Assembly (NCBI RefSeq): GCF_001592085.1
Contig: NZ_BCWD01000002.1
Location: 62,001-126,000, forward strand
Source of the DNA: Levilactobacillus senmaizukei DSM 21775 = NBRC 103853
Lineage (GTDB): Bacteria; Bacillota; Bacilli; Lactobacillales; Lactobacillaceae
Length of the DNA: 64,000 bases
Direction of reading: 5' to 3'
The translations under genes were made by a program, and so were the position numbers. Shown one piece after another: positions 3,845-54,321 of this stretch (its first letter is position 1; each line of letters starts with the position of its first letter). Under the pieces are notes generated by a model. That model was not told the origin of the DNA. It saw only the letters and a program-made list of their open reading frames with translations, and made no database searches.

Positions 3845-4013
3845 CTTAGCCGAGAGGGCGGCGCTAGGATGGCTCAGTGGTGTCGTTTAGCTTGATCGGC
3901 GTGATCTTCGCCGGTCTAGGTAAAGACCGAGCTTGAAGACTTGCGGGTTGGGCAAAGCTTCAAGTCATGTCCACCACGTTCCAGCCATCCCAGCGCCAAC
4001 CGGCAGGCGCCAG
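3845..4013 (-). repeat. Family B three-stem repeat, copy B1
   Basis: Begins 14 bases after the YolD-like stop codon, in gene-sense orientation. P1 pairs 3861-3874 with 3983-3996 (one mismatch in 14). P3 pairs the AGCTTGATCGGCG arm with CGCCGGTCTAGGT, with imperfections. P2 is CTTGAAG/CTTCAAG around the loop acttgcgggttgggcaaag. Ends are the conserved GCCGAGAGGGCGGC and GCCAACCGGC. Confidence 0.85.
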
Positions 4014-4026
4014 TGTCGATCGCCAC

Positions 4027-4407
4027 CTAAGTGAACGTGACGTTGCGAACAGCGCTGAGGGGAAAGCGGCGGTAACGCCCGGACGCCACTCGCAACACAA
4101 TCTGGTCCTCATTGACACCGGCCACCAAGCCGTCCGCCAAGGCAATCGTCTGGTTGGTACTAAAGATGTTCAGCTGTAGATGGATGGCCTTCTTATACCG
4201 CCAGGCGGTAGCGAGGTCCTCGCTTATCGCTTTCTCGTCCTGTTGCGGCCGAGTCGGTTCGATCTGCTCGGCCGCGTGCATTTTCGCCAGGGCACTAGTG
4301 TGATCGGACAGATAGAAACCGCCCCACTTCAACATCCCACGATCATGATAGTCCCGGTCAAAGAACTGATCGGCAACCCGGTCATCGGGTTCTTGATGTA
4401 AAATCAT
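4027..4407 (-). CDS. YolD-like SOS operon protein
   Basis: A 126-residue soluble protein resembling the YolD-like family, whose members sit beside Y-family polymerases in Gram-positive SOS operons and are proposed to take the place of UmuD. The N-terminal half has DYHDRGMLKWGGFYLSDHTSAL, like the M-x-K-W-x-P/G-F-x-L-x-E/D-H segment of YolD proteins; the C-terminal half (about 75-126) is a small beta-rich domain ending YRRFPLSAVRNVTFT. An AGGGAG site precedes the ATG. It is third in the operon, 14 bp after the 107-residue gene, and is followed by repeat B1 and a terminator. The precise role of YolD proteins is not settled. Confidence 0.75.
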   Translation of the reverse strand: MILHQEPDDRVADQFFDRDYHDRGMLKWGGFYLSDHTSALAKMHAAEQIEPTRPQQDEKAISEDLATAWRYKKAIHLQLNIFSTNQTIALADGLVAGVNEDQIVLRVASGRYRRFPLSAVRNVTFT

Positions 4408-4421
4408 GGACCGTCACTCCC

Positions 4422-4745
4422 TTAACGAATCCAGCGCTGACTCCGAGGCCAGCGAACTTTCCCGAAATCCACGAAATTCAGGGTTAAATCTGTCTGTTGC
4501 TTGACCTGATCGATCACATTTTCTAGTATCTCTAAATCGGTCGACCGCACCGTATGTAACGGAATCGATCGCTCTCGGTGATTCTTGCGGCGAATATCTA
4601 AAAAGAAATTAAACCCATGCCCAAACTGGTTATAGACCACGTCAATCCGGTAGCGGCAGTGCCACTGCGCCGTGAATAACGGGTCTAAACGTTCGACCAC
4701 AATCTGGGCTTCCTTACGTGTATCAATCAAAACTATTCCCCCCAT
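4422..4745 (-). CDS. Unrecognised SOS operon protein, 107 residues
   Basis: Begins MGGIVLIDTRKEAQIV and contains CRYRIDVVYNQFGHGFNFFLDIRRK. The start at 4745 has a GGGGG ribosome site five bases upstream and overlaps the end of uvrX by 23 bp, which implies translational coupling; the longer upstream frame lies inside uvrX. It is soluble, basic and without a domain I can name. Its place between UvrX and a YolD-like protein suggests a role in damage-induced DNA synthesis or its control, which is inference from context only. Confidence 0.7.
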   Translation of the reverse strand: MGGIVLIDTRKEAQIVVERLDPLFTAQWHCRYRIDVVYNQFGHGFNFFLDIRRKNHRERSIPLHTVRSTDLEILENVIDQVKQQTDLTLNFVDFGKVRWPRSQRWIR

Positions 4746-6021
4746 TATGACCCCCAACCAACGCGGACCGGCGCAACATGGTGCCACCTCGGAGCAAGCT
4801 GCTGGCCGGAATAACCGCCGTCTTGCCGAAACGGTCGCGAAGTTCATCGATCACCCGGTCAAATTGGTTATTTTTAATCTGCCGTTCGGGGTTCTGGAAT
4901 AAATCCAACTGTAAGTTCTGACTCGCACTGAGTCGCGATAGCCCCACACCGATATTACGAACGGGTTGGCCTTCCCAGTATTGCCGGAATAAGCGAATCA
5001 GTTCGGCGATGATATCATGCGCGTTATCGGTCGGATCAATCCGGTGAGTATGATGCAATCCGCCCCGACCATCATCGGCTTCGCCATCCCAAGCGAAGCC
5101 CACAAACAGACTAACACATCCAGCCTGTTGATGATGGTGCCGCATCCGCGACGTGACCTGTTGCCCGATTTCCCGCAAGACTAACTCAATCTCAGATTGT
5201 CGCTTATAGTCACGTGGCAGCACTTGCGAGTTACTCCAGCTCTTCTCCTTAGGTGGCCGGACATTCCCCAGCTCGGTGCGATCGATTCCCCAGGACAAAG
5301 CAAAGAGCTGTGTCCCAATTAAGCCCATTTCGTGGCGCAATTCATACGGATTCACGTGGGCCAGGTCGCCCATGCTGTGAATCCCCAACCGTTGAAGGTG
5401 TGCCGCCGTCCGATGGCCAATGCTCCAGACCTTTTCCAAATTGGTCATCGGCCAGATGTGTTCCCCGAAGTCTTCATAAGTTAAACGGCCAATCAGATCG
5501 TGATCGTGTTTAGCCTGCAAGTCTAAGGCGAGTTTAGCCTGAACCGGATTTTCTCCGATGCCCACCGTCGTGTACAGCCCCAGCTCACGCCGAACTCGGA
5601 GCTGAATCCGTCGAGCGACTTCTTCCGGGGTCTTGCCAAATAACCGCCACGACTTAGTCATGTCCAGGATCGATTCGTCAATTGAGTACGGAAACAGATC
5701 GCTGTCGGCCACATACTGACGAAAGATCTTATTAATGGCCAAATTCTTCTGAATATACAGATTCATTCGTGGCGGAACCACTAAAATTCGTGGATCTCGT
5801 GGTACTTCATATTGTCGCGAAACATTACTAATCCCAAATAGTCGTTTGGCGGTGGGTGACGCAGCCAACACCAGCCCGGTCCCGGTATTGTCTGCTTCCG
5901 ACATCACAATCAAACATGATTTCAGCGGATTAAGGCCGCGTTCGATACTCTCCACGCTAGCGTAGAACGATTTGTTATCAATCATAAAATATAAGCCATG
6001 GGGCTCCCGCGAGTAATCCAT
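4723..6021 (-). CDS. uvrX: Y-family DNA polymerase, UvrX type
   Basis: A 432-residue translesion polymerase of the UmuC/UvrX branch. The first catalytic motif is FMIDNKSFYASVE with Asp15, and the second is PYSIDESILD with the S-I-D-E acids near residues 113-116. Thumb and little-finger segments follow (SIGHRTAAHLQRLGI is the helix-hairpin-helix, about 185-200). The start at 6021 follows GGGAGG by eight bases; the alternative eight codons upstream lies on top of the transcription start. It heads an SOS operon with two small proteins. A palindromic LexA-type box lies inside the promoter spacer. The polymerase is expected to copy damaged DNA with low fidelity. Confidence 0.92.
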   Translation of the reverse strand: MDYSREPHGLYFMIDNKSFYASVESIERGLNPLKSCLIVMSEADNTGTGLVLAASPTAKRLFGISNVSRQYEVPRDPRILVVPPRMNLYIQKNLAINKIFRQYVADSDLFPYSIDESILDMTKSWRLFGKTPEEVARRIQLRVRRELGLYTTVGIGENPVQAKLALDLQAKHDHDLIGRLTYEDFGEHIWPMTNLEKVWSIGHRTAAHLQRLGIHSMGDLAHVNPYELRHEMGLIGTQLFALSWGIDRTELGNVRPPKEKSWSNSQVLPRDYKRQSEIELVLREIGQQVTSRMRHHHQQAGCVSLFVGFAWDGEADDGRGGLHHTHRIDPTDNAHDIIAELIRLFRQYWEGQPVRNIGVGLSRLSASQNLQLDLFQNPERQIKNNQFDRVIDELRDRFGKTAVIPASSLLRGGTMLRRSALVGGHNGGNSFD

Positions 6022-6051
6022 CGTCACCGCCTCCCTTCCATTCATGAGATA

Positions 6052-6080
6052 ATTATACGAACGTCTGTTCGTTATTGCAA
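6052..6080 (-). promoter_or_regulatory. uvrX promoter with LexA (DinR) box in the spacer
   Basis: A -35 TTGCAA (6075-6080) and a -10 TATAAT (6052-6057) are separated by exactly 17 bases. The spacer contains the palindrome CGAACGTCTGTTCG (6058-6071), a close match to the Gram-positive SOS box CGAAC-N4-GTTCG. Repressor binding would block both hexamers. Confidence 0.9.
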
Positions 6081-6296
6081 GCGAACACGAGAAATTAAAT
6101 CAATTTTTTATCGAATTAACTATCCCATTTTTTGCCGCCATGGGCTGATTATCGAACCGGTCTAAAACCCGCGTACACTTTGAACTACTTCGGTCATGAA
6201 TAACGCTATATTGAATTCATTGCTATGCTTGTCAATCAGTAGTCGACTAAATATTTTAATAGCTTTTATGGCAACCAAGTGGTAGAATGAACTTGT

Positions 6297-6395
6297 GAAG
6301 TTAGCCCTAGTCAACTAGCTTCCTCAACTTTTTAAGAAGTAACCCGGGCCTGTCCGCCACTTAAACGCGGCAACGTCTGGATTGCTTCTTTTTGT
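6297..6395 (+). ncRNA. Candidate small RNA with terminator
   Basis: Two hairpins in a 99-base stretch without a reading frame. The first pairs 6297-6304 with 6315-6322 (8 bp, one G-U). The second joins AAGAAGTAACCCGG (6334-6347) with CTGGATTGCTTCTT (6377-6390), with an inner CCGC/GCGG, and ends TTCTTTTTG. A TAGAAT -10-like hexamer lies at 6283-6288, without a good -35. The case rests on structure and terminator alone. Confidence 0.4.
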
Positions 6396-6506
6396 TACAA
6401 TCCGTTAATATAACGATGTTACACTGTCTGCATTTCGTGGTCAGTCCGACACTTTTATCGCTTGATAATTTCTGACTAAAACGGTTATTTGTCCCATTAG
6501 AATGCA

Positions 6507-6547
6507 AGAAGCCCCTCACTGGAACCTATCCGGTGAGGGGCTTTTGA
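6507..6547. terminator. Bidirectional-looking hairpin terminator
   Basis: AAGCCCCTCAC pairs with GTGAGGGGCTT around a loop that itself contains GG/CC, followed by TTTT on the plus strand. No gene ends here; it may terminate the candidate RNA at 6297 or an unseen transcript. The rest of the 6082-6838 gap holds repeat A3 and nothing else that I can name. Confidence 0.55.
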
Positions 6548-6710
6548 CGTTCTTAACGCTGATATTAATTTAGTTATTTGCGGTAGACCGGTCTGGTTTA
6601 TTCAGTCAGATCCGCTCAACGCCGATCCGCGTAACCCCATTCGGTTCCGGTATCATTCGGTTTTGATTATCAGGTGGTGCCCCCTTCGGGGTCCTTTCTT
6701 GCTAATTATC

Positions 6711-6838
6711 TGGCCGAAACGTGTTCGGGCCAGCAACCGCCTCCGCTTAACCCCGGTAGGTCAAAAATCCAAGTTCGGGATTTCCACCCTACCGACGTTA
6801 ATGCTCAGCAGTTAACTGCTGGCCTTCACACTCTATTT
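6711..6838 (-). repeat. Family A hairpin repeat, copy A3
   Basis: Inverse orientation relative to A1 and A2. The shared segments are CGAAACGTGTTCGGGCCAGC, CCGCTTAACCCC and TTAATGCTCAGCA. The central stem CGGTAGG (6754-6760) pairs with CCTACCG (6788-6794), again a different sequence from A1 and A2. It ends at the stop codon of the ABC transporter gene, in sense orientation with it. Confidence 0.75.
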
Positions 6839-8767
6839 CTATTCGTACGACAGGGCTTCCACTGGATCCAGCTTCGAAGCCTGGCCGGCTGGCGCCAGTG
6901 CCGCTAACAGACTGATGATAATGGCGACGACAATCCCAAAGATCATGTAGTTACTGGTGATATCAATAATCATGTAACCAATGCCTTTTCTAGCCACGTT
7001 ATTAGCCAGCACCGCCACAATTTCCGTGAAGACCAGCCCCAACAGGCTGGAGAATAACCCGAGGAAGAAGGCTTCCGACAAGAACAAGTGGCGAATATCC
7101 TTGCGCCGCACACCTAATGCCCGCAGAATACCAATTTCCTTGGTCCGTTCCGAAACGCTGATGTACAGCACCACGATAATCATAATGGCCGAGACTAACA
7201 GGGAAATTCCCGCGATGGCTGCCAAGACGTAGAACGCTAATTGAATGTAGGTGTTCAGCGTCGAAACAATCGCGCCGGCCCCCGTCAACTGATACTGTTT
7301 CTTCTTGCCATTGTCGGTCTTCAAGCCCTTGATCTTATCCTGCACGCTCGTCACGTTCTTCAAGGAATCAATCATGACCGTCGCAAAGTTGGCCCGGAAG
7401 GTCAGCTTCTTACTCTTGTACATGTTGCGCACCGTTTGCAGGTTGGTCTGAAGTTGGCCCGAACTGTCGTCGGTAATCCCACTAACCTTCAGGGACTTGG
7501 TCATCACGACCGGCAAATGCTGCTTGTTCATCCCCGTGACAGAGACCTTCACCTTCTGCCCAATCAACTTGTACGGATGTTGCTTGTTGAATTTCTTGGC
7601 AAATGCCTTGGACAAAATGACTTCGCCCGTAGCTGGCTTGTGCCCCTTCTTCACGCTCTTAGCCAACATTTGGTCGGTCGTCGTTTGGAAGATGGACGAG
7701 GTCGCCGAGGTGCCGCCCTTTTGAACCTGAATTCCTTGGCCGTAATACCCGAGTTCAACCTTCTTAACGTGCTTCAATTGCTTAATTCGGTTGACGTCGG
7801 TCTGGCCAATCTCAAGCTTCTTGGCATCCTGACTGTCCGTGTTCTGGGCTACCTGAACGGCGGTTGGCTTAATTTGGGAATAAATTTCGTGGTTGATATA
7901 CCCCTTAACGCCGCGCCCAAGGCCCAACATCAGAATCACACTGAAGATCCCGATGGACGCCCCAAAGATAATTAACAAGTTCCGTTTCAAGTTGTAGCGC
8001 ATATGCTTCAGTGCCATCTTGACCATGGCCGTGAAGCTCAGGTGCTTCGATGGTAAGTCGTGATGTTCTCCAACTGGGAAGGCAGCCTTCAACCGCGTAT
8101 CGTGGTCGATGATCCCGTCTTCCATGTGAACAATTCGCGTCCCGTGGTCAGCCACCTCTTGTGAGTGGGTAACACAGATGACCAGCTTACCATCCGCCGC
8201 AATTTCATCCATCAACGCCAGAATTTCCTGGGTGTTCTGAGAATCCAACGCCCCGGTTGGTTCGTCGGCGATGATGATGTCGGGATCGGAGGCTAACGCC
8301 CGCGCGATGGCGACCCGTTGCTTCTGCCCACCGGACAATTGGTTAGGATGCTTGTGCATATGTTCCGCCAGCCCCACCTTTTTCAGGAGGCTTTCGGCTC
8401 GTTCCTTCTGATCATGCCGACTGAGGCCGGTCATTTGCAGGGAAACCAGCACGTTATCCAAAATGCTGAGATGACTGATTAAATTAAAGTTTTGAAAGAC
8501 AAAGCCAATCGTCTGGCGCCGAAAGGCATCGAGCTCTTTCGCCGAAATCTGCCGCACGGACGTGCCATTCAACAGCACATCCCCTTCGTACTGGGCGTCC
8601 AGCCCACCGATGATATTCATCAGCGTGGTCTTCCCACCACCAGATTCCCCCAAGATCGACACAAACTCGCCGCGATCAAACTGCAGGTCGATTCCCTTCA
8701 GAACCGGAAAGGCGGTCTTGTTCATGTAATACGTCTTACGAATACCCCTTAACTCTAAAAAGCTCAT
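6839..8767 (-). CDS. ABC exporter, fused ATPase and FtsX-type permease (MacB-like)
   Basis: A 642-residue fusion. Residues 1-225 are an ATPase of the LolD/MacB class: Walker [10 protein letters not shown] (40-48), signature LSGGQKQR (about 143-150), Walker [13 protein letters not shown] (about 161-172). The permease part has one membrane helix near 250-275 ([18 protein letters not shown]), a large extracytoplasmic domain of about 240 residues, and three C-terminal helices ending in [20 protein letters not shown], the usual FtsX/MacB tail. AGGAGG-like TTGGAGGAG precedes the start. Family members export or sense peptides and antibiotics, or take part in envelope stress. No partner or two-component system is adjacent, so the substrate is unknown. 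Confidence 0.88.
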
Positions 8768-8842
8768 AGGCTGTACTCCTCCAAATAAAGTATACCGTGA
8801 ACAATACCCCTTTTTAGATCGTTGTGCAATCTTTTCAATGGA

Positions 8843-9499
8843 TTATTTAACAGTAAACACGGTGCGGATCGCCTTCACGTCGCGATCGATATCGTCACTC
8901 TGGGTGAGCAGACTGATCACGGCTGCCCCCATGGCGCCCGCCTGCGCAATCGCGGGCAAGGCGTCGACGGTAATCCCGCCAATGGCCACGATGGGAAAAT
9001 GACTGCGCTCAACCAACATTTGTAGTCCGGTGACCCCAATGACGGGATCGGCATCGGTCTTGGAGATCGTTGGCAGAATGGGGCCACTCCCTAAGTAATC
9101 AATTCCCTTAATTTGGTTAGCGGTGCGGACCTCATCCTTTGTCGAGCAGGACAATCCCACGAACATGTTATGCCCGGCAATCCGGTCGATGACGTCCGTC
9201 ACCCGCTGATCACCTTGGCCGACGTGAATCCCATCGGCATGTAAGGCCAACGCTAAATCCACATCGTCGTCCACAATGAAGGGCACGCTAGCCGCCCGAC
9301 ATTGGGCCCGCAGATCGCGGCCGAGGTCCAAACGTTGGGCACCACTCAACTTACTAGCACCCTTATCTCGAAATTGAAAGGCCGTGATTCCGGCCGCCAG
9401 GGCTGCCGTTAATACTTGACGTAAGTCCCGTCCGGGCACGTCTTGACTGCCCGCAACGAAGTAAGCCCGTAGTAATCCTGGTTCAAAAGTAACCGACAT
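8843..9499 (-). CDS. thiE: Thiamine-phosphate synthase
   Basis: A 218-residue TIM-barrel enzyme joining HMP pyrophosphate with thiazole phosphate to make thiamine phosphate. Characteristic segments are FQFRDKGASKL (pyrophosphate contact), FIVDDDVDLALALHADGIHVGQGD, GLSCSTKDEV, YLGSGPILPTISKTDA and VAIGGITVDALPAI. The start at 9499 is chosen because an AGGAGG site lies upstream and its ATG overlaps the thiD stop codon (TAATG). It is last in the thiM-thiD-thiE operon, which salvages pyrimidine and thiazole moieties. Confidence 0.95.
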   Translation of the reverse strand: MSVTFEPGLLRAYFVAGSQDVPGRDLRQVLTAALAAGITAFQFRDKGASKLSGAQRLDLGRDLRAQCRAASVPFIVDDDVDLALALHADGIHVGQGDQRVTDVIDRIAGHNMFVGLSCSTKDEVRTANQIKGIDYLGSGPILPTISKTDADPVIGVTGLQMLVERSHFPIVAIGGITVDALPAIAQAGAMGAAVISLLTQSDDIDRDVKAIRTVFTVK

Positions 9500-10314: not shown

Positions 10315-10342
10315 GTCACATCATCCCTTCTTATAAATTTAG

Positions 10343-11131
10343 TTATTCAAACGCGGCCACCGCTTCAATATCGGTAACCGTCGTCGTTTGGAGCGCATCC
10401 AGAAGTTTAACAATAAAGCTTCCAGCCGCCACATCCGGATTGGCTTCCACCACCAGTTGCCCGATGGCCGCAAAAACTAGGCAGGCCGTCTGGGCCGCCT
10501 CGAAGGCATCCGGCTCGATAGCACAGAAGGCCCCCACGATACTGGACAACATGTCCCCGGACCCCACGTGCACCTGAAATAGTGGCGTACCGTTCATGAC
10601 TTTCACCGTCCGCGTCCCATCGGTAATAATATCGGTGGGCCCGGATAGGATCACGGTACAACTCAACTTCTGCGCACAGGCTTGGGCAATTGCCACCAGG
10701 TCGCCGTCACCGGAACCGGCATCAATGCCCTTAGCCGCCCATGTGATATCGGCGAGCGCGGCAATTTCGCCGGCATTCCCGCGAATAACATCTGGGTGAA
10801 ACGTCTCTAATAAATGATTAGCCACGTGCTTCCGGTAAGTCACGGCCCCCACCGCTACCGGATCGATCACCAATGGCCGGTGCTGTTCATTTGCCAGCTG
10901 GCCGACCGTTTGAATTTGTTCGATTTGCCGCTCGGTAAAAGCCCCCAAGTTCAGGCAGACCGCATTGGCAATCCCCACCATTTCCGCGGCTTCCGCAACC
11001 TCTTCCGACATGATGGGTGACGCCCCCAAGGCATTCAACCCGTTCGCCACGTCCTGGACGGTAACGAAATTGGAGATGTTAAAGACAATTGGATTCTGGA
11101 CCCGTAACTCATTCAACAGTGATAACTTCAT
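10343..11131 (-). CDS. thiM: Hydroxyethylthiazole kinase
   Basis: A 262-residue enzyme that phosphorylates hydroxyethylthiazole for use by ThiE. Recognisable segments are PIVFNISNFVTVQDVANGLNALGASPIMSEE, LVIDPVAVGAVTYR, GNAGEIAALA and the active-site VGSGDMLSSIVGAF (the ATP and catalytic region; many homologues have Cys in place of Asp here). It is first in the salvage operon, with an AAGGGGG ribosome site. I looked for a TPP riboswitch in the 750 bp upstream and did not see its CUGAGA and ACCUGA cores; the upstream sequence holds repeats B2 and B3 instead. Confidence 0.95.
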   Translation of the reverse strand: MKLSLLNELRVQNPIVFNISNFVTVQDVANGLNALGASPIMSEEVAEAAEMVGIANAVCLNLGAFTERQIEQIQTVGQLANEQHRPLVIDPVAVGAVTYRKHVANHLLETFHPDVIRGNAGEIAALADITWAAKGIDAGSGDGDLVAIAQACAQKLSCTVILSGPTDIITDGTRTVKVMNGTPLFQVHVGSGDMLSSIVGAFCAIEPDAFEAAQTACLVFAAIGQLVVEANPDVAAGSFIVKLLDALQTTTVTDIEAVAAFE

Positions 11132-11191
11132 GATGCTGCCCCCTTATAATTTGTCTTACTCTTTCTGGTTCCTATTTTGGTGGCCGAAGAT

Positions 11192-11344
11192 CGCCTACCG
11201 GTTGGCCAGCTAGATACTGGAACGCCATGGGCACGGCTTTGAGCCCAAAAACGTCTCAAAGGCCGACCTTTCTCTAAGCTGGGAATCTCCCTAAACTAAG
11301 AGAAACTTCATAGCTGAGCATCTATCTGACCGTCCTCTCGGCTA
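11192..11344 (+). repeat. Family B three-stem repeat, copy B2
   Basis: Starts CTACCGGTTGGCCAG and ends CCGTCCTCTCGGCT. P2 GCTTTGAG/CTCAAAGGC and P3 TTTCTCT/AGAGAAA with inner GGGA/TCCC are intact; P1 (AGCTAGATACT with AGCATCTATCT) has imperfections. It is 60 bp upstream of thiM, antisense to it, and inverted relative to B3. Confidence 0.85.
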
Positions 11345-11475
11345 ACACTGACCCCCAAGTCTCAATTAACTGACAGACGGACAATCATAGCAATCACCAT
11401 GATGGCAACTGAGTTACCCTAACCAATTCCACTCTGACGAGGTGCGATTCCCATCCTTATACCCTCCACGACTGG

Positions 11476-11637
11476 GTAAGCCATGAGGACGGTCCCGGAG
11501 ATACTCAGTGGTATCGTTTATCTTAGCCGAGTGAGTTCCTCGGGTTAGGTAAAGACCGACCTTTAAAATACAGGTCCTTCGCGACTTAAAGTCGTGTCCA
11601 CCACGTTCCAGCGTCTCCAGGGCCAACTGGCAAGACG
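11476..11637 (-). repeat. Family B three-stem repeat, copy B3
   Basis: Downstream of the SDR gene and in sense with it. P3 is TTTATCTTAGCCGAG with CTCGGGTTAGGTAAA; P2 is CTTTAA/TTAAAG around a long loop; P1 is short (CCC and GGAGA with TCTCC and GGG). The remainder of the 11132-11890 gap (11345-11475 and 11638-11890) shows no gene. Confidence 0.8.
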
Positions 11638-11890
11638 ACCCAGGGTGGCCGTCAGCCACCCAAACCAGGCCACTGAAAATCAAGACAACATAAAACGGAC
11701 CGCCAGCTCACGAAAGTGTGAACCGGTGGCCCGTTGTGGGTGCCACGACACGTTCCCTTCGCAAGTTTGAACTTGACAGGTTCTAAGGGATCGCTGACAA
11801 ATCAACATCTCAGCCCACGAATGGACACCCCTAGTGTTTTGGTTACTTCTAGCCTACCAGCTTTCGCTCGTGACAACAACGCTTCTTAGA

Positions 11891-12869: not shown

Positions 12870-13032
12870 CTGTCTCGCCAGGAGCCAGCCCTGATGGGCC
12901 GGAACGCGGTGAACATGACTTTGAGCCAAAGGGCGGTCTCAAAGATCAGTTCTGCCTAACCGGAGAAGTTTCCTCCGCTAAGGCAGTTCCACGGCTGGGC
13001 CCGGGCTGGCTCCTGGCTGGCTCCTGGCTGGA
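12870..13032 (+). repeat. Family B three-stem repeat, copy B4
   Basis: P1 is a perfect 15-bp pairing of 12877-12891 with 13003-13017 (GCCAGGAGCCAGCCC). P2 is CTTTGAG/CTCAAAG around ccaaagggcggt. P3 is CTGCCTAACCGGAG with CTCCGCTAAGGCAG. The right end contains an extra TGGCTCCTGGC duplication at 13014-13028, a small tandem expansion of the P1 arm. Confidence 0.88.
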
Positions 13033-13289: not shown

Positions 13290-13446
13290 TAAGCCGTGAG
13301 GGCGGCCAGATAGATGCTCAGCCATGAAATTTCTCTTAGGCGGGCGACCTTCCCGACTTAGAGAAAGGCCGGCCTTTGAGACCGCTCTTTGGCTCAAAGC
13401 CGTGCCCACGGCGTTCCAGCAGCTATCTGGCCAACCGGCAAGACGA
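13290..13446 (-). repeat. Family B three-stem repeat, copy B5
   Basis: Lies 20 bp after the fetB stop, in sense with it. P1 pairs 13304-13313 with 13423-13432 perfectly (GGCCAGATAG). P3 is TTTCTCTTAGGCGGG with CCCGACTTAGAGAAA. P2 is CTTTGAG/CTCAAAG around accgctctttgg. Confidence 0.88.
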
Positions 13447-13466
13447 CCAAAACAAAAGATCAAATT

Positions 13467-26069: not shown

Positions 26070-26226
26070 ACCTACCGGTTGGCCAGGGAAGGGCCGGAAC
26101 ATGGTGGACACGACTTGAAGCCTTGCCCAACCCGCAAGTCTTCAAGCTCGGTCTTTGCCTAAGCCGAAAAAAGCTCGGCTAACGCAAACGACACCACTGA
26201 GCCCTTCCCTGGCCGTCCTCTCGGTT
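26070..26226 (+). repeat. Family B three-stem repeat, copy B6
   Basis: P1 is a perfect 14-bp pairing of 26081-26094 with 26201-26214 (GGCCAGGGAAGGGC). P2 pairs 26114-26120 (CTTGAAG) with 26140-26146 (CTTCAAG). P3 pairs TTTGC and TAAGCCGA with TCGGCTA and GCAAA. It lies between two convergent terminators, in sense with neither neighbour's coding end. Confidence 0.9.
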
Positions 26227-26265
26227 TTCACGATCTAAAAACGATGTCAAAGAATTTAGCAAAAC

Positions 26266-26413: not shown

Positions 26414-26460
26414 GACCCCGGAAGCAGATGGGGTGCCCCAAATCTGCTTCCGGGGTTCCA
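26414..26460. other. Strong hairpin below purB without a T-run
   Basis: GGACCCCGGAAGCAGAT pairs with ATCTGCTTCCGGGGTTCC over at least 15 bp. There is no T-run on either strand, so it is not the terminator. It lies 26 bp after the purB stop codon and may protect the mRNA 3' end. Confidence 0.6.
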
Positions 26461-26485
26461 ACGGCCAATCTCGCCAAGCTAACCG

Positions 26486-32148: not shown

Positions 32149-32169
32149 TTTCTAATCCAGTTTAACTTG

Positions 32170-32296
32170 AGTCCGGCGGGTGCCTGGGCCCAGCGGTGTC
32201 GTTTGGCTTAGGCAAAGGCTGAGCTTAGAGACCGCTCTTTGGCTCTAAGTCATGCCCACCGCGTTCCGGCCCAAGGGCACCCGCAGTACGGCGCAG
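32170..32296 (-). repeat. Family B repeat, copy B7 (short P3)
   Basis: P1 pairs 32176-32184 with 32276-32284 perfectly (GCGGGTGCC). P2 is CTTAGAG/CTCTAAG around accgctctttgg, the same loop as B5 but with a stem changed at two pairs on both sides. P3 is reduced to TTTG/CAAA. It lies 40 bp after the usp stop codon, in sense with it. Confidence 0.85.
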
Positions 32297-38368: not shown

Positions 38369-38629
38369 AAAAAAATCGTCCCCGCTGCAACTATGCAACA
38401 GGGACGATTAGACTCAACCGTGGTACCACCCAACTTGAATCACTGGTTCTAGACCCAGCAATTCCACTCTCTAGAAGGTAACGGCTCTAGTCATTTTCCG
38501 CCTGGCGTACCAGGACATTCCACTGTATTTCGTCGTAATCATCCTGATCGGTTCGCAGCAACCACCGACTCTCTTACGCACAGATGACACGCTACTTGGT
38601 AATGGAAATTAGCGTTCGTTATTCGATTG
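38369..38629 (-). promoter_or_regulatory. T-box riboswitch upstream of nhaC, Tyr specifier
   Basis: On the minus strand the leader has a stem I with AGAGAGTCGG and CCAAGTAGCG, a specifier loop GAAATACAGTGGAAT in which UAC (38525-38527) is followed by A, the T-box core GGTGGTACCACG (38419-38430) and a terminator TAATCGTCCC/GGGGACGATT with seven T (38369-38410). UAC reads tyrosine. Confidence 0.88.
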
Positions 38630-41904: not shown

Positions 41905-42063
41905 CGCCTTACCGGTTGGCCGGTAGGTGGCCGGAACGCCACGGACACAGCTTTGAGCCAAAGAGCGGTCTCAAAGACTGGTCTTATTCTAACCTTGGGA
42001 AAACCACCCAAGCTAAGAATAATTTCATGGCTGAGCCACCTACCGGCCGCCCTCACGGCTTAG
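41905..42063 (+). repeat. Family B three-stem repeat, copy B8
   Basis: P1 pairs 41918-41931 with 42035-42048 perfectly (GGCCGGTAGGTGGC). P2 is CTTTGAG/CTCAAAG around ccaaagagcggt. P3 is TCTTATTCT and TTGGG with CCCAA and AAGAATAA. The left end is GCGCCTTACCGG, the right end CCGCCCTCACGGCTTAGA. Confidence 0.9.
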
Positions 42064-42248: not shown

Positions 42249-42359
42249 TTCACCAAATCCAATCGAAACACCCTGCAAAAAAACTTTCATCTCAATAAAA
42301 AAGGTTACCAACATTGGTGGTCAATACCTAATCAGGATAACCGTACATACCGTTAGCCA

Positions 42360-42535
42360 GAGAAGGCCAGGGAGGTAGCTAGCCGTGAAGGTGGTGTTGA
42401 CTGGCGTTTTGGGCCAGTTTACGCCACGGGCGACCTTTGAGACGCAGGCTTGTCGCAGCTTCAAGTCGAGTCGAAAGCCCGCTTCTCAGGCTGGAGCATC
42501 CCAACGGTAGATTGCCTCCCTGGCCGTTAACGGCA
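42360..42535 (-). repeat. Family C structured repeat, copy C1
   Basis: P1 pairs 42365-42377 with 42513-42525 (13 bp, one G-U). It contains AAGGTGGTGTTGACTGG facing CCAGTTTACGCCAC, and a shorter CTTTGA/TTCAAG stem that corresponds to P2 of family B. Confidence 0.75.
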
Positions 42536-42604
42536 ACCACCACGTCTAATCTAAATAAATCCGCAGCCTGGTATCATCAATATCCAGCCAAGATAACAAA
42601 ACAT

Positions 42605-42795
42605 AATCGTAGCCGGAGAAGGTCAGGGAGGTAGTCAACCGTGAAGGTGGTGTTGACTGGCGTTCTGGCCCAGTTTACACCACGGGCGACCTTGAAGACA
42701 CGGTCCTTTCGTGGCTCCAAGTCGAGTCGGAAGCCCGGCTTCTCAGGCTGGAACGTCCCCACGGTAGGCTGCCTTCCTGGCCGCCGTAGGCGACC
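42605..42795 (-). repeat. Family C structured repeat, copy C2
   Basis: A close tandem copy of C1, starting 17 bp after the peptidase stop (42812). P1 GGTCAGGGAGGTAG (starting at 42621) still pairs with CTGCCTTCCTGGCC using G-U pairs, which points to function as RNA. P2 is CTTGAAG/CTCCAAG around acacggtcctttcgtgg. Confidence 0.75.
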
Positions 42796-42811
42796 AATAA
42801 CTCACAAACCA

Positions 42812-45212: not shown

Positions 45213-45213
45213 C

Positions 45214-45264: not shown

Positions 45265-45273
45265 TTTACTCAT

Positions 45274-47832: not shown

Positions 47833-47856
47833 GGCTCTCTCCCCTTGAAAATTCCC

Positions 47857-48231: not shown

Positions 48232-48347
48232 GCTGCCACCTCGCAATCGTTTTGATATGCCTCTAATTGTACCATTCACTCCCTGCGATAGTGGCGAAAT
48301 CATTCTCAGTTACGGAACTTATTCAGTCCTTAAGCTTTCTGTTTTGA

Positions 48348-48383
48348 TTCTTGTTCTGATTCTTGTTCTGATTCTTATTTCAG
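48348..48383 (+). repeat. Short 12-bp tandem repeat
   Basis: GATTCTTGTTCT occurs twice and once more in the altered form GATTCTTATTTC. It borders repeat B9. Likely a slippage tract. Confidence 0.75.
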
Positions 48384-48407
48384 TATTTGAATGCCGACGG
48401 CATTCCT

Positions 48408-48571
48408 TGGCGCCTTACCGGTTGGCCCTACAAGCGCTGGAACGCTGTGGACACGACTAGGAGCCTTGAAACCCACAAGTCTCCTAGCTCGGTCTTTATC
48501 TAGGCCGAGAAATTCTCTCTGCCAAGATAAATTTCACAGCTGAGCACTTGTAGGTCCGCCCTCACGGCTTA
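48408..48571 (+). repeat. Family B three-stem repeat, copy B9
   Basis: P1 pairs 48427-48434 (CCTACAAG) with 48547-48554. P2 is CTAGGAG/CTCCTAG, a complete compensatory variant. P3 is TTTATCT, GGC and GAG with CTC, GCC and AGATAAA. The 48572-48848 stretch beyond it holds no gene. Confidence 0.88.
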
Positions 48572-48847
48572 GACTGGTGAAAATCGAGACCAACAAGAAT
48601 CAACGGCCACGATACCAAGACTCGAAACAACAATCACCGAAACCGTCTCTATCTCACACACCAAAAATGAAACTCAGACCTCATCGATCCCCCTTGATAG
48701 CAACTCATTATTTTAAATAAATAAATGCCCACCGCGACAGCCTACTTTCGGGCTCGAATCCATCAAAAATGACGATCTCCTTAGACAAGTTCCACCACAA
48801 CCAAAGTCATAAAACCCGTCACCGTCTCATGTCAAATAGAAGTCGGA

Positions 48848-48958
48848 GACTGGTAAACCCGGAGTTCCGTGATCATCATCTAAGCCTGCCGACCTGAAGA
48901 CCGCTTCCTAGGCTTCAGGTCGGCCTTATGGAACGCAGGACTTACCAGTTTTTAGCAC
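48848..48958 (-). repeat. Family C structured repeat, copy C3
   Basis: P1 pairs 48849-48856 (ACTGGTAA) with 48942-48949; P2 pairs 48888-48899 (GCCGACCTGAAG) with 48913-48924 perfectly, with loop accgcttcctagg. The TATGGAACGCAGG part is similar to family B. Confidence 0.75.
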
Positions 48959-48967
48959 TGGATCAGA

Positions 48968-49150
48968 AGCCGAAGGAAGGCAGGTGCGGAGTCCCGTGGT
49001 GGTCTTCTTAGGTCGGCCGGGCCTGCCGGACTTAGAAGACTGGCCGTCCAGATAGACTCGGGTCTTTGAGGCTACCTGGCGCCCTGAAGACCGCTCCTCA
49101 GGCTTCAGGTGCTGCCTCATGGGACGCAGCACCTGCCAGCCGTAGGCTGA
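48968..49150 (-). repeat. Family C structured repeat, copy C4
   Basis: P1 pairs 48979-48987 (GGCAGGTGC) with 49139-49147. It has an extra long hairpin (GTCTTCTTAGGTC with GACTTAGAAGAC), and a P2 of CCTGAAG/CTTCAGG around accgctcctcagg. A larger, more branched relative of C3. Confidence 0.7.
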
Positions 49151-49261
49151 CCAACCCCAACCACCCCCCAACCAAAACCAAAACTAAACCTTTACGAGAT
49201 CAACATCAAATGACTACATAAGTTGGCTACAGTGAATAACAGAGAAAGAGGAGGCATTATC

Positions 49262-49408
49262 ATGCGACCAATGTCTGATCGACTGTACAGCTACGTCTGG
49301 ATGTCACTGTTGCTAGTGGGCTTCGGTTCACCGAGCATTGCGGCGGCTGCTCAGGCCCTAGCTAACGCTAGCCAAACAAAAAGACCGTCCTCACAGGAAC
49401 GGCCTTGA
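49262..49408 (+). CDS. Possible 48-residue exported peptide
   Basis: MRPMSDRLYSYVWMSLLLVG then FGSPSIAAAAQALANASQ: a hydrophobic segment with an AAA-type cleavage region and a short polar tail. AGAGGAGG lies eight bases upstream of the ATG, a very good site. The frame ends inside the terminator of the convergent xylT-like gene, and no homologue is known to me. Its plus-strand orientation opposes all neighbours. Confidence 0.4.
   Translation: MRPMSDRLYSYVWMSLLLVGFGSPSIAAAAQALANASQTKRPSSQERP
49378..49407 (-). terminator. Terminator of the first xylT-like gene
   Basis: AAGGCCGTT pairs with ACGGTCTT (one mismatch); the minus-strand tail is TTTTTG. Confidence 0.75.
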
Positions 49409-49416
49409 TGAATCGT

Positions 49417-50799
49417 TTAATTAACTTTTTCGGTAACAACTAAGTCATCGGCATCTTCACCGGCCTTAGTCCGTAACGTCGCTTCGATATCTTCCAAAGA
49501 GCGGCCGCGAGTTTCGAAGACCTTCTTTTGAACGAACCAGATAGAAACGAAGCAGAGCACCCCGTAACCGATGAACAAACTACCAGTACCAAAGTAGTCC
49601 AGCAGGTATGGGAAGGTTAAGGAAACAATCATGTTCGCCGTCCAGTTAATCACACTGGCGAAGGAGTTCCCTAAGCCCCGAATATTGAGTGGGAAGACTT
49701 CCCCAATCATAACCCACATCACCGGACCCCAAGTTGCGGAGAAGAAAGCAATGTAGATGGTTAAGGCGATTACGGAAACGATCGCGGCCACGTGGGAACC
49801 CCCGGAGAACTTCATGCCAAGGCTCATCACAAATAGGGAAATTCCCATGCCGACGGCCCCGATATTCAACATCTTTTTCCGGTCGAATTTATCCATGATG
49901 GCCACGGCAACCGCGGTAACCACCACGTTGAAGACCCCAATCCCGATATGCGCTAACAGAGCGGCATGCACCCCGAAACCGACATCGGTGAAAATGGTGG
50001 GTGCGTAGTAGAGCACCGTGTTACAACCCATTACCTGTTGGAAGATGGCAAGACCAACCCCAATAACTAATGAAGGATGAACCATCTTACTGAATAATTC
50101 ATTCCAGCCACCACTAACAATTTTAGCAGAGGCTTCGATTTCGGTAATTTCTTTGTTTACGGCAACTTCGTCATGTTTATTCATGGTTTCGAGCACTGCC
50201 CGTGCTTGATCCATGTGGCCACTCTTGGCTAAGAACCGTGGGCTCTCTGGTAGAATTAACCCACCCAGGAATAATAGGGCTGCCGGTAGCGCAGCGAACC
50301 CTAACATCCAGCGCCAACCGGTATACATACCGGAGAAAGTTAAGTTGGTAATGTAGGCCAACAGAATCCCGGTCATCACCATCAGTTGGAACAGGCTGGA
50401 GACCGTACCCCGTTTGTCGGCGGGCGCGAGTTCAGCTAGGTACGTTGGAATTAAGGCGGAGGCAGCCCCCACGGCAGCACCCAAGATAACTCGTGAGATA
50501 ATCAGTGTCCAGAACTCTGGCGAGAACGCCGACCCCAAAGCACCAATAAAGAAAATAATAGCAGAGAGAAGTAGAAGCTTCCGCCGACCATAACGGTCAG
50601 ACGATGGCCCGATAATAGCGGCACCCAAGATGGCACCCAGCAGGACGGCACTAACGACCCAGCCTTGTTCCCAAGGACCCAAGTGCATTTGCTTCTGAAT
50701 AAACAAAATGGCTCCTGAGATTACCCCGGTATCATACCCAAAGAGGAGTCCCCCAAGGGCGCCGAAGAAGTAAACGAATCCGGTTGAAACTTTATGCAT
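49417..50799 (-). CDS. Sugar:H+ symporter, XylT-like paralogue
   Basis: A 460-residue MFS sugar porter with twelve helices: GYDTGVISGAILFIQ in helix 1, DRYGRRK in the first loop, PESPRFL after helix 6, QQVMGCNTVLYYAPTIF in helix 7, and GEVFPLNIRGLGNS. It is a close tandem paralogue of the 50987-52360 symporter; the extra C-terminal residues DLVVTEKVN are the main difference. Its promoter has the same cre/XylR pattern, so it belongs to the xylose regulon. Xylose or arabinose substrate cannot be separated by sequence. Confidence 0.9.
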   Translation of the reverse strand: MHKVSTGFVYFFGALGGLLFGYDTGVISGAILFIQKQMHLGPWEQGWVVSAVLLGAILGAAIIGPSSDRYGRRKLLLLSAIIFFIGALGSAFSPEFWTLIISRVILGAAVGAASALIPTYLAELAPADKRGTVSSLFQLMVMTGILLAYITNLTFSGMYTGWRWMLGFAALPAALLFLGGLILPESPRFLAKSGHMDQARAVLETMNKHDEVAVNKEITEIEASAKIVSGGWNELFSKMVHPSLVIGVGLAIFQQVMGCNTVLYYAPTIFTDVGFGVHAALLAHIGIGVFNVVVTAVAVAIMDKFDRKKMLNIGAVGMGISLFVMSLGMKFSGGSHVAAIVSVIALTIYIAFFSATWGPVMWVMIGEVFPLNIRGLGNSFASVINWTANMIVSLTFPYLLDYFGTGSLFIGYGVLCFVSIWFVQKKVFETRGRSLEDIEATLRTKAGEDADDLVVTEKVN

Positions 50800-50871
50800 A
50801 GTCTTTTTACTTCCTTTGACGGTTCATCGCCGTAGATTTTGGTTCAATGTAAGTTGGCGTTTCTTTAGTTA

Positions 50872-50890
50872 GTTGATTGCCTCAACCAAC
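50872..50890. promoter_or_regulatory. XylR operator upstream of the 49417-50799 symporter
   Basis: GTTGATTG, three bases, CAACCAAC; nearly identical to the xylT operator and lying ten bases below the -10. Confidence 0.75.
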
Positions 50891-50900
50891 TATGCTTATT

Positions 50901-50938
50901 ATGATAGCACTTACATTTATTTTTTGGAAGCGTTTTCC
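50901..50938 (-). promoter_or_regulatory. Promoter with cre, xylT-like gene
   Basis: -35 TTCCAA (50924-50929), 17-base spacer, -10 TATCAT (50901-50906). The cre-like site TTGGAAGCGTTTTCC (50924-50938) lies over the -35 and matches 14 of 15 positions. Confidence 0.75.
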
Positions 50939-50986
50939 GCAAAAAAATACACCGCCATGCCCGGCGGTGTATTCCAAGTTATTTGA

Positions 50987-52360
50987 TTATTCAGCAGCAC
51001 TCAGGTCTGAAGCCGTATCGCCGGCCTTTTCCCGTAACGTTGCTTCGATTTCTTCCAGTGAACGGTTCCGCGTTTCGAAGACTTTCTTCTGAACGAACCA
51101 GATGGAGGCGAAGCAGAGCACCCCGTAACCGATGAACAGACTACCAGTCCCGAAGAAGTTCAACAGTGCTGGGAAGGTTAAGGAAACGACCATGTTAGCC
51201 GTCCAGTTGATCACACTGGCAAAGGAGTTCCCTAAGCCTCGAATGTTCAATGGGAAGACTTCCCCAATCATAACCCACATCACGGGTCCCCAAGTGGCAG
51301 AGAAGAACGCAATGTAGATGGTTAAGGCAATCACGGAGATAATGGCCGCAACGTGTGAGCCGCCGGAGAACTTCATCCCGATACTCATAACGAACAGGGA
51401 AATCCCCATCCCAACGGCACCGATGTTTAACATCTTCTTCCGGTCGATCTTATCCATGATGGCCACGGCAATGGCCGTCACAATCACGTTAAAGATCCCA
51501 ATCCCGATATGGGCTAACAGGGCCGCATTGACCCCGAAACCAACGTCGGTAAAAATGGTTGGTGCGTAGTAGAGCACCGTGTTACAACCCATGACTTGTT
51601 GGAAAATAGCTAAGCCAATCCCGATAACCAATGAAGGGCGCACCATCTTACCAAAGAGTTCGGTCCAGCCGCCACTCTTCATCTTAGCCTGTTCTTGAAT
51701 CTGGGTTAATTCGGCGTTAACCGCCTTAGTATCGTGCTTGTTCATGGTGTCTAAGACTTGGCGAGCATCGTCAACTCGACCACTCTTGACCAAGAACCGT
51801 GGACTTTCGGGTAAGATTAATCCCCCGAAGAACAGTAATGCGGCAGGCACAGCCGCGAATCCTAACATCAGACGCCAGCCGTGGAACATGTCAGCCCAAG
51901 CGTAGTTAGTGATGTAGGCTAACAGAATCCCCGTCATCACCATCAGCTGGAACAGACTGGAGACCGTCCCCCGCTTGTCGGCGGGTGACAATTCTGCCAA
52001 GTAGGTTGGGATTAACGCGGACGCTGCCCCAACGGCCATCCCCAGGACGACCCGGGAGATAATCAGTGTCCAAAACTCAGGTGCCAGCCCGGAGCCTAAG
52101 GCCCCAACGAAGAAAATAATGGCTGATAGTAATAAGAGTTTCCGCCGGCCATAGCGGTCAGACGATGGCCCAATGATGGCGGCCCCTAAGATGGCACCCA
52201 ACAAGACGGCACTAACGACCCAACCTTGTTGCCAAGGGCCCAAGTGCATTTGCTTTTGAATAAATAGAATGGCACCTGAGATGACCCCGGTATCGTAACC
52301 GAAGAGTAAGCCACCTAATGCCCCGAAAAAGTAAACAAATCCGGTTGAAACTTTTCGCAT
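50987..52360 (-). CDS. xylT: D-xylose:H+ symporter
   Basis: A 457-residue MFS sugar porter of the same length as the characterised L. brevis XylT. It has twelve helices, GYDTGVISGA, DRYGRRK, PESPRFL and GEVFPLNIRG. AAGGAG precedes the ATG. Next to xylB and xylA, so it is the preferred xylose carrier; the paralogue downstream is probably a later duplication. It has its own promoter with cre and a XylR operator. Confidence 0.9.
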   Translation of the reverse strand: MRKVSTGFVYFFGALGGLLFGYDTGVISGAILFIQKQMHLGPWQQGWVVSAVLLGAILGAAIIGPSSDRYGRRKLLLLSAIIFFVGALGSGLAPEFWTLIISRVVLGMAVGAASALIPTYLAELSPADKRGTVSSLFQLMVMTGILLAYITNYAWADMFHGWRLMLGFAAVPAALLFFGGLILPESPRFLVKSGRVDDARQVLDTMNKHDTKAVNAELTQIQEQAKMKSGGWTELFGKMVRPSLVIGIGLAIFQQVMGCNTVLYYAPTIFTDVGFGVNAALLAHIGIGIFNVIVTAIAVAIMDKIDRKKMLNIGAVGMGISLFVMSIGMKFSGGSHVAAIISVIALTIYIAFFSATWGPVMWVMIGEVFPLNIRGLGNSFASVINWTANMVVSLTFPALLNFFGTGSLFIGYGVLCFASIWFVQKKVFETRNRSLEEIEATLREKAGDTASDLSAAE

Positions 52361-52462
52361 ATTTTTCGCTCCTTATGCGGCCTACGCCGTAAAAATAAAG
52401 TGACAGAGTATGTGGAAGTAAACACTGAATTGCTTAATGTAAGTTGGTTTAATCACGTGTTG

Positions 52463-52481
52463 GTTGATTGGCTCAACCAAC
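52463..52481. promoter_or_regulatory. XylR operator upstream of xylT
   Basis: GTTGATTG, GCT, CAACCAAC, extended on the left by GTTG. It lies nine bases below the -10 element. Confidence 0.78.
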
Positions 52482-52490
52482 CATGAGGAT

Positions 52491-52528
52491 ATAATACCAC
52501 GTCCAAATCTATTTTGGAAGCGTTTTCT
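52491..52528 (-). promoter_or_regulatory. xylT promoter with cre
   Basis: -35 TTCCAA (52514-52519), 17-base spacer, -10 TATTAT (52491-52496). The cre TTGGAAGCGTTTTCT (52514-52528) matches the consensus at all 15 positions. Confidence 0.8.
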
Positions 52529-52546
52529 TTTAAAACTAAAAAAAGT

Positions 52547-52570
52547 CCGACAAGCGCCGGACTTTCTGCA
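52547..52570 (-). terminator. xylB terminator
   Basis: AAAGTCCGG pairs with CGGACTTT on the minus strand, followed by TTTTTTAG; it separates xylB from xylT. Confidence 0.85.
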
Positions 52571-52588
52571 AACTTTATTAGAATATTT

Positions 52589-54097
52589 TTATAGCTCCGC
52601 CTTACGGTAATCAAGGAGTTGTTCACTGATCCCCTTGGTTTGTTGGTATACCTGCTTATAGATTTGATGCATCTTGGCGTATTTGGCCGCGTTCTCTGGA
52701 TTAGGCTCGTAGGCCTTGCCAAAGTGAACGAAAGTTTCGGCACAGTCTTGGAGTGAGTCGAACCAGCCCAGGCCAACGGCGGCGATCATCGCTGCCCCCA
52801 TGCCAGGACCCTGTTCATTTTCTAGGCTGACGACCTTACGGTTAAAAATATCCGCTTGAATCTGCAGCCAGAGTGGACTCTTAGCCCCACCACCGATGGA
52901 GACTACCGTATCAAAGTCGCCCCCATTTTCCTCGTAAATATCGAAGAGGTCGCGGAAAGAAAAGACGATCCCCTCCAAAACAGCGCGGACAAAGTCGTAC
53001 CGTTGATGCGTGCCATCGATCCCGGTAAAGCTCCCCCGGATGTCAGCATCGGCGTACGGCGCCCGCTCACCCACGATATAAGGCGTGTAGAGCAGACCAT
53101 TGGCGCCGACCGTCGACTTGGCCGCACTCGCCACAAACTCCGTGAAATCATCGACGGGAGCAAAGGTCTTCTTGAACCAGCTCAAAGAATACCCAGCGGC
53201 CAGGGTCACACCCATAGAGTAGTATTTGTCGGGAATGGCATGGTCTTCGAACTGCAGCACCCCATGGTAGTTCACGTCGGCATTATCTTCATACTTCAAG
53301 ACAACCCCGGAGGTTCCGATACTGGAAAGCACCATGTTCGGGTGTAAAATGCCCGCACCAACGGCTCCTGCGGCGTTGTCGGCGGCCCCACCGAAGACCT
53401 TGGTCTCCATATTCAAGCCAGAGAACTCGGCGTAAGCCGCCGTCACCGTTCCCGCAAAGTCAATCGACTTGATCAGGGGTGGACACATGCTCATCGGAAT
53501 ATCGAAAACGTCACAAATCCGTTGGCTCCATTCGCCCTTAGCCACATCCAGTAAGACCGTCCCGGTCGCATCGGAGTAATCCATGGCCAAATTGCCGGTC
53601 ATGCGGTAACGCACGTAGTCTTTCGGTAACACAAAATACTTAGCCTTCGCCCAAATATCGGGTTCGTTTTCCTTAACCCACAACAACTTGGTCAGCGTAA
53701 AGCCTTCGAGCGGCTGATTCCGGGTAATGTCAACGAACTCGTCACCCAGCTTCGCTTCAATTTCTTCCCGTTGTGGCGTACTCCGGGTATCGTTCCAAAG
53801 AATCGACGGCCGAAGGACCTTCTTGTTCTCATCCAACAGAACGAGCCCATGCATTTGGCCAGAAAAACTCAGCCCCTCAATATCATCGGCGGCCAGGTGG
53901 TCATTCAAAATCAAGCGGACAATGGCGACCGTTGTGCCAGAGACCCAGTCCTCGGGATTTTGTTCGTTATACCCTGGCTGTTTCTGAATCAAATCGTAGT
54001 CAAAACTTTCCTGAGCAACAATCTGCCCACTATGGTCTAAGGCCGATACCTTGACGGCACTGGTCCCCAGGTCAACACCGAGTACATACTTTCCCAT
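52589..54097 (-). CDS. xylB: Xylulokinase
   Basis: A 502-residue FGGY kinase phosphorylating D-xylulose. Start [17 protein letters not shown], then [15 protein letters not shown] (xylulose recognition), [16 protein letters not shown], and [19 protein letters not shown] near the C-terminus. AGGAGG precedes the ATG. It lies 380 bp below xylA, beyond a terminator and repeat B10; no clear promoter or XylR palindrome was seen just upstream, so it may depend on readthrough. Confidence 0.95.
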
Positions 54098-54167
54098 CGG
54101 TCATTCCTCCTAGTTTATCGTTTGGTTTTAATTTTTTGGTTTTAAATTCTAGACAGTGCAAGCTGTC

Positions 54168-54321
54168 CGCCTTGCCGGTCCCAGCTAGCAAGCTGGAACG
54201 TGGTGGGCCGACTTTGAGCCCCAAACCCGGTCTCCAAGCTCGACCTTTGCCTAACCCGAGCAGACCTCTCGGCTAAGGCAAACAACACCACGGAGCCTGC
54301 TAGCTGGTTTCCTCACGGCTC
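54168..54321 (+). repeat. Family B three-stem repeat, copy B10
   Basis: Lies in the xylA-xylB gap, antisense to both. P1 pairs 54181-54190 (CCAGCTAGCA) with 54298-54307 perfectly. P2 is CTTTGAG/CTCCAAG, with one imperfect pair. P3 is CCTTTGCCTAACCCGAG with CTCTCGGCTAAGGCAAA. Confidence 0.85.

Follow-up and report, generated by a model that had tools for sequence, protein, structure and literature searches.

Three-way-junction repeats of Levilactobacillus senmaizukei as the probable folded DNA ends of MITE-like intergenic units

The stretch analyzed here, called the window, comprises 64,000 nucleotides of Levilactobacillus senmaizukei DSM 21775 (genome G000; contig NZ_BCWD01000002.1, positions 62,001 to 126,000) and carries a dispersed, structured repeat of about 150 nt. 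An initial annotation, made from the sequence alone, had listed ten copies of this element as family B (B1 to B10). All ten are present where they were placed, with boundaries from a covariance model that differ by only a few bases (Table 1), and a separate repeat search of the window recovered the same ten as direct and inverted repeats. We built the covariance model that the annotation had proposed, R1, from eight of the ten copies, omitting B4 and B7 because their ends align badly, and it recovers 10 of 10 in the window at E ≤ 1e-20. Beyond these copies, R1 gives eight weaker matches in the window with E values of at most 1. We take the three at E ≤ 2.5e-4 as relatives; the five at E 0.014-0.42 were not used, three of them antisense matches inside B4, B9, and B10. 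The relative at 42354-42497 belongs to a second structured repeat type, represented by direct repeats at 42321-42481 and 42577-42737. The regions of this type, at 42321-42800 and 48880-49150, have a junction fold with a weak R1 match; in another genome, G032, weak R1 matches of 170-190 nt are frequent.

Table 1. Elements and weak relatives in the window (scores are from R1; positions are those of the window)
Feature	Position	Strand	Remarks
B1, three-way-junction element	3847-4006	-	137.8 bits; orthologue in genome G026 95% identical
B2, left element of facing pair with B3	11195-11344	+	137.5 bits; weakest fold, z -1.22
B3, right element of facing pair with B2	11478-11633	-	131.5 bits
B4, left element of facing pair with B5; P1 long and GC-rich	12875-13023	+	93.8 bits
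B5, right element of facing pair with B4	13291-13441	-	157.7 bits
B6	26072-26227	+	140.8 bits; fold z -8.39
B7, shortened copy, most of P3 missing	32162-32294	-	84.0 bits
B8, with CGCCTTACCGG end	41909-42061	+	147.7 bits
Weak relative facing B8	42354-42497	-	26.1 bits; repeat D5; fold
Weak relative, second copy of the structured repeat type seen at 42354-42497	42644-42728	-	30.6 bits
B9, with CGCCTTACCGG end	48415-48570	+	158.2 bits
Weak relative facing B9	48967-49145	-	23.4 bits
B10	54172-54321	+	134.9 bits; same-locus match in G026 in opposite orientation

The ten copies share one fold, a three-way junction in which the outer stem P1 leads through a conserved, asymmetric joint (GGAAC/TGA) into an inner stem extending P1 and on to two hairpins, P2 and P3. 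The outer stem enclosing two hairpins is as first described, and the P2 arm pairs quoted with it are correct as given, but the fold is a three-way junction rather than the cloverleaf it was likened to, and the description of P1 as usually perfect fails for B2, whose weak fold is equaled by 25 of 200 shuffles. Folded singly as RNA, the copies give z scores of -1.2 to -8.4 against dinucleotide shuffles; single-stranded DNA folds of B5, B6, and B8 are good on both strands (z -4.1 to -8.7). The compensatory stem changes that had been noticed are borne out by RNAalifold, which places 48 pairs on the ten copies, 26 of them with a two-sided compensatory change. We extended the covariation analysis to 120 copies (118 distinct) from 75 stretches of named genomes in several genera, an alignment in which 93.7% of cells are paired. 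Its covariation score is 0.603 compared with 0.160 in shuffles (0 of 500 as high) and drops to 0.05-0.10 when the partner is slid; because the alignment was fitted to R1, these figures favor the structure. Further pair types in the same alignment are not above shuffles (145 versus 142.8). The sequence of P1 is free, with 96.3% of cells paired over its 16 pairs and two-sided changes at all 16.

Copies of the element are mostly the paired ends of units of 0.35-0.6 kb, so that the usual unit is a facing pair and not the single copy, as had been assumed. Pooled over three sets, 93 of 96 pairs of close neighbors are facing and none is back to back: 48 of 50 in genome G019 (starts within 700 nt, plus then minus; one ++ and one -- make up the rest), eight of nine among the 30 strong copies of the window genome (one ++; the 11 weakest of 41 matches at E ≤ 1 excluded), and 37 of 37 in the named-genome stretches. 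The facing pairs of the window are B2/B3 and B4/B5, and B8 and B9 each face a weak relative. Inverted repeats of the CGCCTTACCGG type terminate the units, with CGCCTTACCGG lying outside the elements at most ends. Short units in G019 have a gap of about 53 nt and mostly join one typical to one diverged element; long units, whose gap is 199-277 nt or slightly more, mostly carry typical elements at both ends and a gap sequence that recurs. Units are found in convergent, tandem, and divergent gene gaps (genes being the open reading frame [ORF] calls of this analysis, not annotation), and many copies lie just downstream of ORFs. The terminal inverted repeats, the high copy number, and a length too short to encode a transposase are as in miniature inverted-repeat transposable elements (MITEs). 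Two links to transcription termination were set aside. That units follow terminators is weakly indicated, as a hairpin with a T run lies outside 19 of 67 unit ends compared with 11 of 67 in the opposite reading direction, and a one-way terminator-like hairpin, as expected if units carried a flipping terminator, occurs in only 4 of 14 long-gap units.

Among the genomes sampled, the element is seen in Lactobacillaceae only. R1 matches at E ≤ 1e-4 occur in 33 of 35 Levilactobacillus genomes, the genus in which a search had been suggested, with at least 11 to 86 each (at most 86 candidates scored per genome), and with ten candidates scored per genome they occur in 86 of 301 Lactobacillaceae genomes and 14 of 40 genera. 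A draw across the class gave a match in 1 of 299 genomes, the window's own. A motif scan places the element in Levilactobacillus, Companilactobacillus, Lactiplantibacillus, and Limosilactobacillus, and a blastn search with B8 alone returned no plasmid record. Of 41 matches at E ≤ 1 in the window genome, 30 are strong copies (E ≤ 2.8e-12), and 22 of these lie on contig C2 (144 kb of 2.21 Mb), and G019 has at least 132 at E ≤ 1.2e-15 (150 of 395 candidates scored). With 150 candidates scored per genome, long stretches have no copy among those listed (about 0.93-1.72 Mb on C1 of G019 and about 0.67-1.15 Mb on C1 of G032), and other regions are dense. In drafts of Lactiplantibacillus plajomi and L. 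garii (stretches L132, L138, L142, L148, L159, and L174), several matches end at the stretch edge, as if contigs broke within the element.

Orthologous gaps, whose comparison the initial annotation had proposed, contain units in both orientations. Genomes G018 and G019 have about 95% identity and are collinear for the most part. The G019 stretches contain 41 units, of which 25 are anchored in G018 stretches and 16 were dropped for want of usable anchors; the 14 loci at which the same-locus unit is the best match were kept as strict orthologues and the other 11 excluded. Nine of the 14 have the same orientation and five the opposite, the five flipped units being 96.8-97.7% identical when flipped (one, L198 12226, was compared over one 157-nt element only). 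At all five, flanking sequence that is homologous in the two genomes leads up to the terminal repeat and, beyond it, into different ends of the unit, which locates the orientation switch at the terminal repeats, with junctions seen at one end or both. Five further loci were compared among G027, G031, G032, G033, and G034, and three are inverted, at 84-86% identity when flipped; at one of these (G027/G031/G032), G031 differs from both G032 and G027. Invertible DNA is recognized by both orientations at one locus and a switch at inverted repeats, and this is what is found between species. In flipped G019 units, the two ends have a repeat of 11-18 bp in common (by eye), and assembly error seems unlikely because that repeat is shorter than a read and the adjoining sequence is end-specific. 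These comparisons suggest that whole units turn over in place. Two window copies were not counted as flips. At B6, the opposite end of the unit (about 26420-26480) retains only a P1-like hairpin, and its G026 counterpart has a whole right element and a cut-down left one, so that opposite ends have been lost reciprocally; B10 looks inverted relative to G026, over a local alignment of about 158 nt, but both genomes lack most of the other end.

The elements also change slowly where they stand. Between the window genome and G026, which are collinear over most of the stretches compared, elements are 93.0% identical, near flanks (5-60 nt outside) 80.3%, and the spacers within units 77.5%; third codon positions stand at 75.4% and the other two at 97.1%. 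Resampling of the 21 elements puts their excess over the flanks at 9.7 to 16.6 points. On the spacer side, the slowed zone stops at the element edge (identity about 0.97 inside versus 0.74-0.85 outside), and over the 40 nt adjoining the outer edge it stands at 0.81-0.86. The second pair gives a similar picture: in the 14 strict G018/G019 orthologues, 2.7% of element positions have changed compared with 6.7% in spacers and 7.3% in alignable near flanks. Codon positions of the two genomes have changed by 9.5% at the third and 1.1% at the first two. Stems change least (3.1% versus 9.5% in loops for G000/G026; 1.4% versus 5.3% for G018/G019), then loops, and then near flanks and spacers. Selection on structure, one of the readings that the initial annotation had offered, is thus supported and acts in place. 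Because the constraint persists in the G000/G026 lineage, where flips are apparently rare, the fold may also serve the host or local flipping; conservation of ends under rare flipping would fit either a host effect at gene boundaries or slow recurrent flipping.

The kind of pairing that is kept suggests that the fold matters as DNA and not as RNA. Counts of Watson-Crick, G-U, and A-C cells are 3294/103/132, 3540/33/95, and 5626/70/161 in three copy sets (A5, A4, and A6), and over pairs that are at least 80% Watson-Crick, G-U and A-C make up 1.8% and 2.8% in A5 and 0.6% and 1.1% in A4. Stem changes since the species split include 39 G-U versus 52 A-C for G000/G026 and 13 versus 19 for G018/G019, each change being seen from both sides. 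Because pairing is nearly purely Watson-Crick and G-U is no commoner than A-C, the constraint appears strand-symmetric, that is, at the level of DNA, and the part of the earlier proposal that had selection acting on RNA is not upheld. A structured RNA, whether a 3' untranslated region element, a small RNA, or a bidirectional transcript barrier, with the fold selected in the transcript, would agree with the strong covariation, the very stable RNA folds, and the many copies just downstream of ORFs, and it draws some support from the transcribed strand in tandem gene contexts, where G-U exceeds A-C (94 versus 66), a weak lean that would be compatible with a slight RNA effect or with a mutation bias tied to transcription. 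On the RNA strand, however, G-U should be tolerated over A-C, and apart from that lean it is not, in the copy sets or in place, whereas 56 distinct transfer RNAs of the same genomes hold 75 G-U and 1159 Watson-Crick pairs among 1234 (ARAGORN marks no A-C as paired, which leaves the A-C side of this control blind). Moreover, the units lie in gaps of all three gene arrangements and flip, and Rfam matches up to E 1 in the window overlap none of the elements: there is one thiamine pyrophosphate (TPP) riboswitch at the gathering score, with two T-boxes and two matches at E about 0.9 below it. We therefore set an RNA family aside and consider selection in the transcript unlikely.

The simplest account of all the data is a MITE-like unit whose ends fold as DNA and which inverts in place, and we think it probable that the elements are the folded ends of such non-autonomous units of 0.35-0.6 kb, turning over in place. 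Ordinary neutral MITE copies, whose pairing would come from a master copy able to move only when folded and would decay after insertion, with flips through replication template switching at short inverted repeats, are an unlikely explanation. They would have the MITE-like ends, the many near-identical units of G018 and G019, and the patchy distribution in their favor, and spontaneous inversion is known to occur at short inverted repeats, but in two independent species pairs the elements change at about one third to two fifths the rate of near flanks and spacers, with stems slowest of all and spacers within the same units not slowed. Arm-to-arm correction, in which hairpin-templated repair would hold the arms complementary without selection, does predict Watson-Crick-only covariation without G-U intermediates, and P1 of B10 differs in both arms between G000 and G026 (by eye); most stem changes are nevertheless one-sided and uncorrected (119 cells versus 5 with two-sided Watson-Crick changes for G000/G026, 45 versus 11 for G018/G019), and the stem rate is lowered, not merely coupled, making this process very improbable as the source of the pairing. 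Several observations weigh against the inverting, folded-end MITE-like unit. Mobility by itself would not lead one to expect slow change in place, and the G-U lean on the transcribed strand does not suit a fold selected as DNA. The contrast in rate is smaller against the remaining sequence outside ORF calls (90.1% identical for G000/G026, 4.5% changed for G018/G019), a mixed class that includes unrecognized coding and other sequence, and outer-side identity for G000/G026 returns to 0.85-0.95 beyond about 50 nt. The flips are drawn from assemblies, not reads, with one genome per species, and at 11 of the 25 anchored loci the other species has another unit or a rearranged one and no clean flip, so unit replacement also occurs. 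No clean empty site was found, no target duplication is visible by eye in the flanks of complete units, and no enzyme for flipping was found.

In the mechanism that we propose for the inverting units, two elements facing each other inside short terminal inverted repeats with the core CGCCTTACCGG would fold as DNA, either as hairpins on single-stranded DNA at the fork or as a cruciform. The two folded ends could then be brought together, and an enzyme acting in trans would carry out strand exchange at the terminal repeats; the unit would thereby be inverted and might at times be copied or replaced. A broader version, in which the elements form an inversion system throughout the Lactobacillaceae whose ends are recognized as folded three-way-junction DNA of free stem sequence, with dozens of independently flipping intergenic units per chromosome kept by selection for an effect on neighboring genes, we regard as tentative and on balance doubtful. 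The earlier suggestion of mobility that requires the fold finds partial support in the terminal inverted repeats, the numerous alike units in some genomes, and the flips in place, and it lacks a clean empty site and a transposase. The Y1 (IS200-type) transposase PF01797 is present in 23 of 35 Levilactobacillus genomes, yet it has no match in the element-rich G000, G018, G019, G021, G026, and G033 and is matched in G012 and G024, which are without any R1 element. An IS200/RAYT (REP-associated tyrosine transposase) mover was rejected on this account, since its presence does not track the elements over the 35 genomes and its lack of a match in several element-rich genomes makes it unlikely as a general cause. 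No autonomous copy was noticed in the stretches viewed, where no systematic transposase scan was made.

No description of the element family was found in the open-licence papers searched, in keeping with the first impression that it is undescribed. The nearest known systems would appear to be Correia elements as invertible MITEs, REPINs (doublets of repetitive extragenic palindromic [REP] sequences) as facing pairs, and integron attC sites as folded DNA substrates; each likeness is partial, and the elements have been shown to match the full definition of none of them. They are best classed with MITE-like invertible repeats. We know of no Correia elements with large three-way-junction ends or with paired 150-nt ends of free stem sequence. 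Otherwise, the Correia elements of Neisseria, which are of a different phylum and sequence, are described much as ours are, as short, intergenic, non-autonomous repeats with inverted-repeat ends, and inversion has been reported for Correia repeat enclosed elements (PMC10969869). The attC site is described as a folded hairpin with a strand preference whose recombinase recognizes the folded structure rather than the sequence; our elements may likewise provide a DNA fold as recombinase substrate, but their two strands look alike and the sites stand in facing pairs. In REPINs, facing folding units form the mobile unit. They are described as persistent extragenic populations, like the present units, but REPs are given as palindromes of 20-40 bp, whereas each end here is a 150-nt three-way junction, and the Y1 transposase (TnpA-REP) that belongs to a REPIN/RAYT system has no match in several element-rich genomes. 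Efa-1 of Enterococcus faecalis, an intergenic family of 163 nt for which both strands are predicted to form two adjacent stem-loops (PMC2267715), is similar in location, length, and adjacent stem-loops when compared by description only, without alignment; the published description, in the part that bears on its fold, gives no enclosing stem. The class-wide draw, in which R1 matched only the window's own genome, did not include a check of E. faecalis by name. Invertons, invertible promoters among them, are described as short, often intergenic segments that flip between short inverted repeats, as the units here appear to do, but ours are homologous to one another, lie dispersed in very many copies, and have folded ends.

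If the inverting, folded-end reading is correct, food lactobacilli contain, in these elements, an abundant kind of intergenic DNA that is selected as folded DNA, not as RNA or protein, and that has a measurable activity in its flipping; through the flips, what folded DNA ends do in recombination could be tested directly in harmless laboratory strains. Watson-Crick-only covariation, in turn, offers a simple test, usable elsewhere, that separates structure kept at the DNA level from structure kept at the RNA level.

Other features were seen in the window and in G019. The TPP riboswitch is above the Rfam cut-off at 11736-11842 on the minus strand, and the B2/B3 unit (11195-11633) separates it from the start of the minus-strand ORF that follows (10343-11131). 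In G026, the locus aligns over the whole riboswitch and B2/B3 stretch. The two T-box leaders, both on the minus strand, fall under the Rfam gathering score of 93 bits (62430-62652, 84.6; 38397-38615, 70). A separate repeat family of about 110 nt, folding as one long hairpin, has two copies in tandem (2648-2762 and 2770-2884) and one inverted (6709-6840, minus strand). In G019, a 2-kb segment between two CGCCTTACCGG ends (L183 14459-16467) holds an AT-rich, transporter-like ORF; cut-down element remains accompany the ends, and the G018 locus is about 1.2 kb shorter. Elsewhere in G019, one unit is present twice, 6.7 kb apart (L184 7928-8280 and 14653-15005), in an apparent tandem gene duplication.

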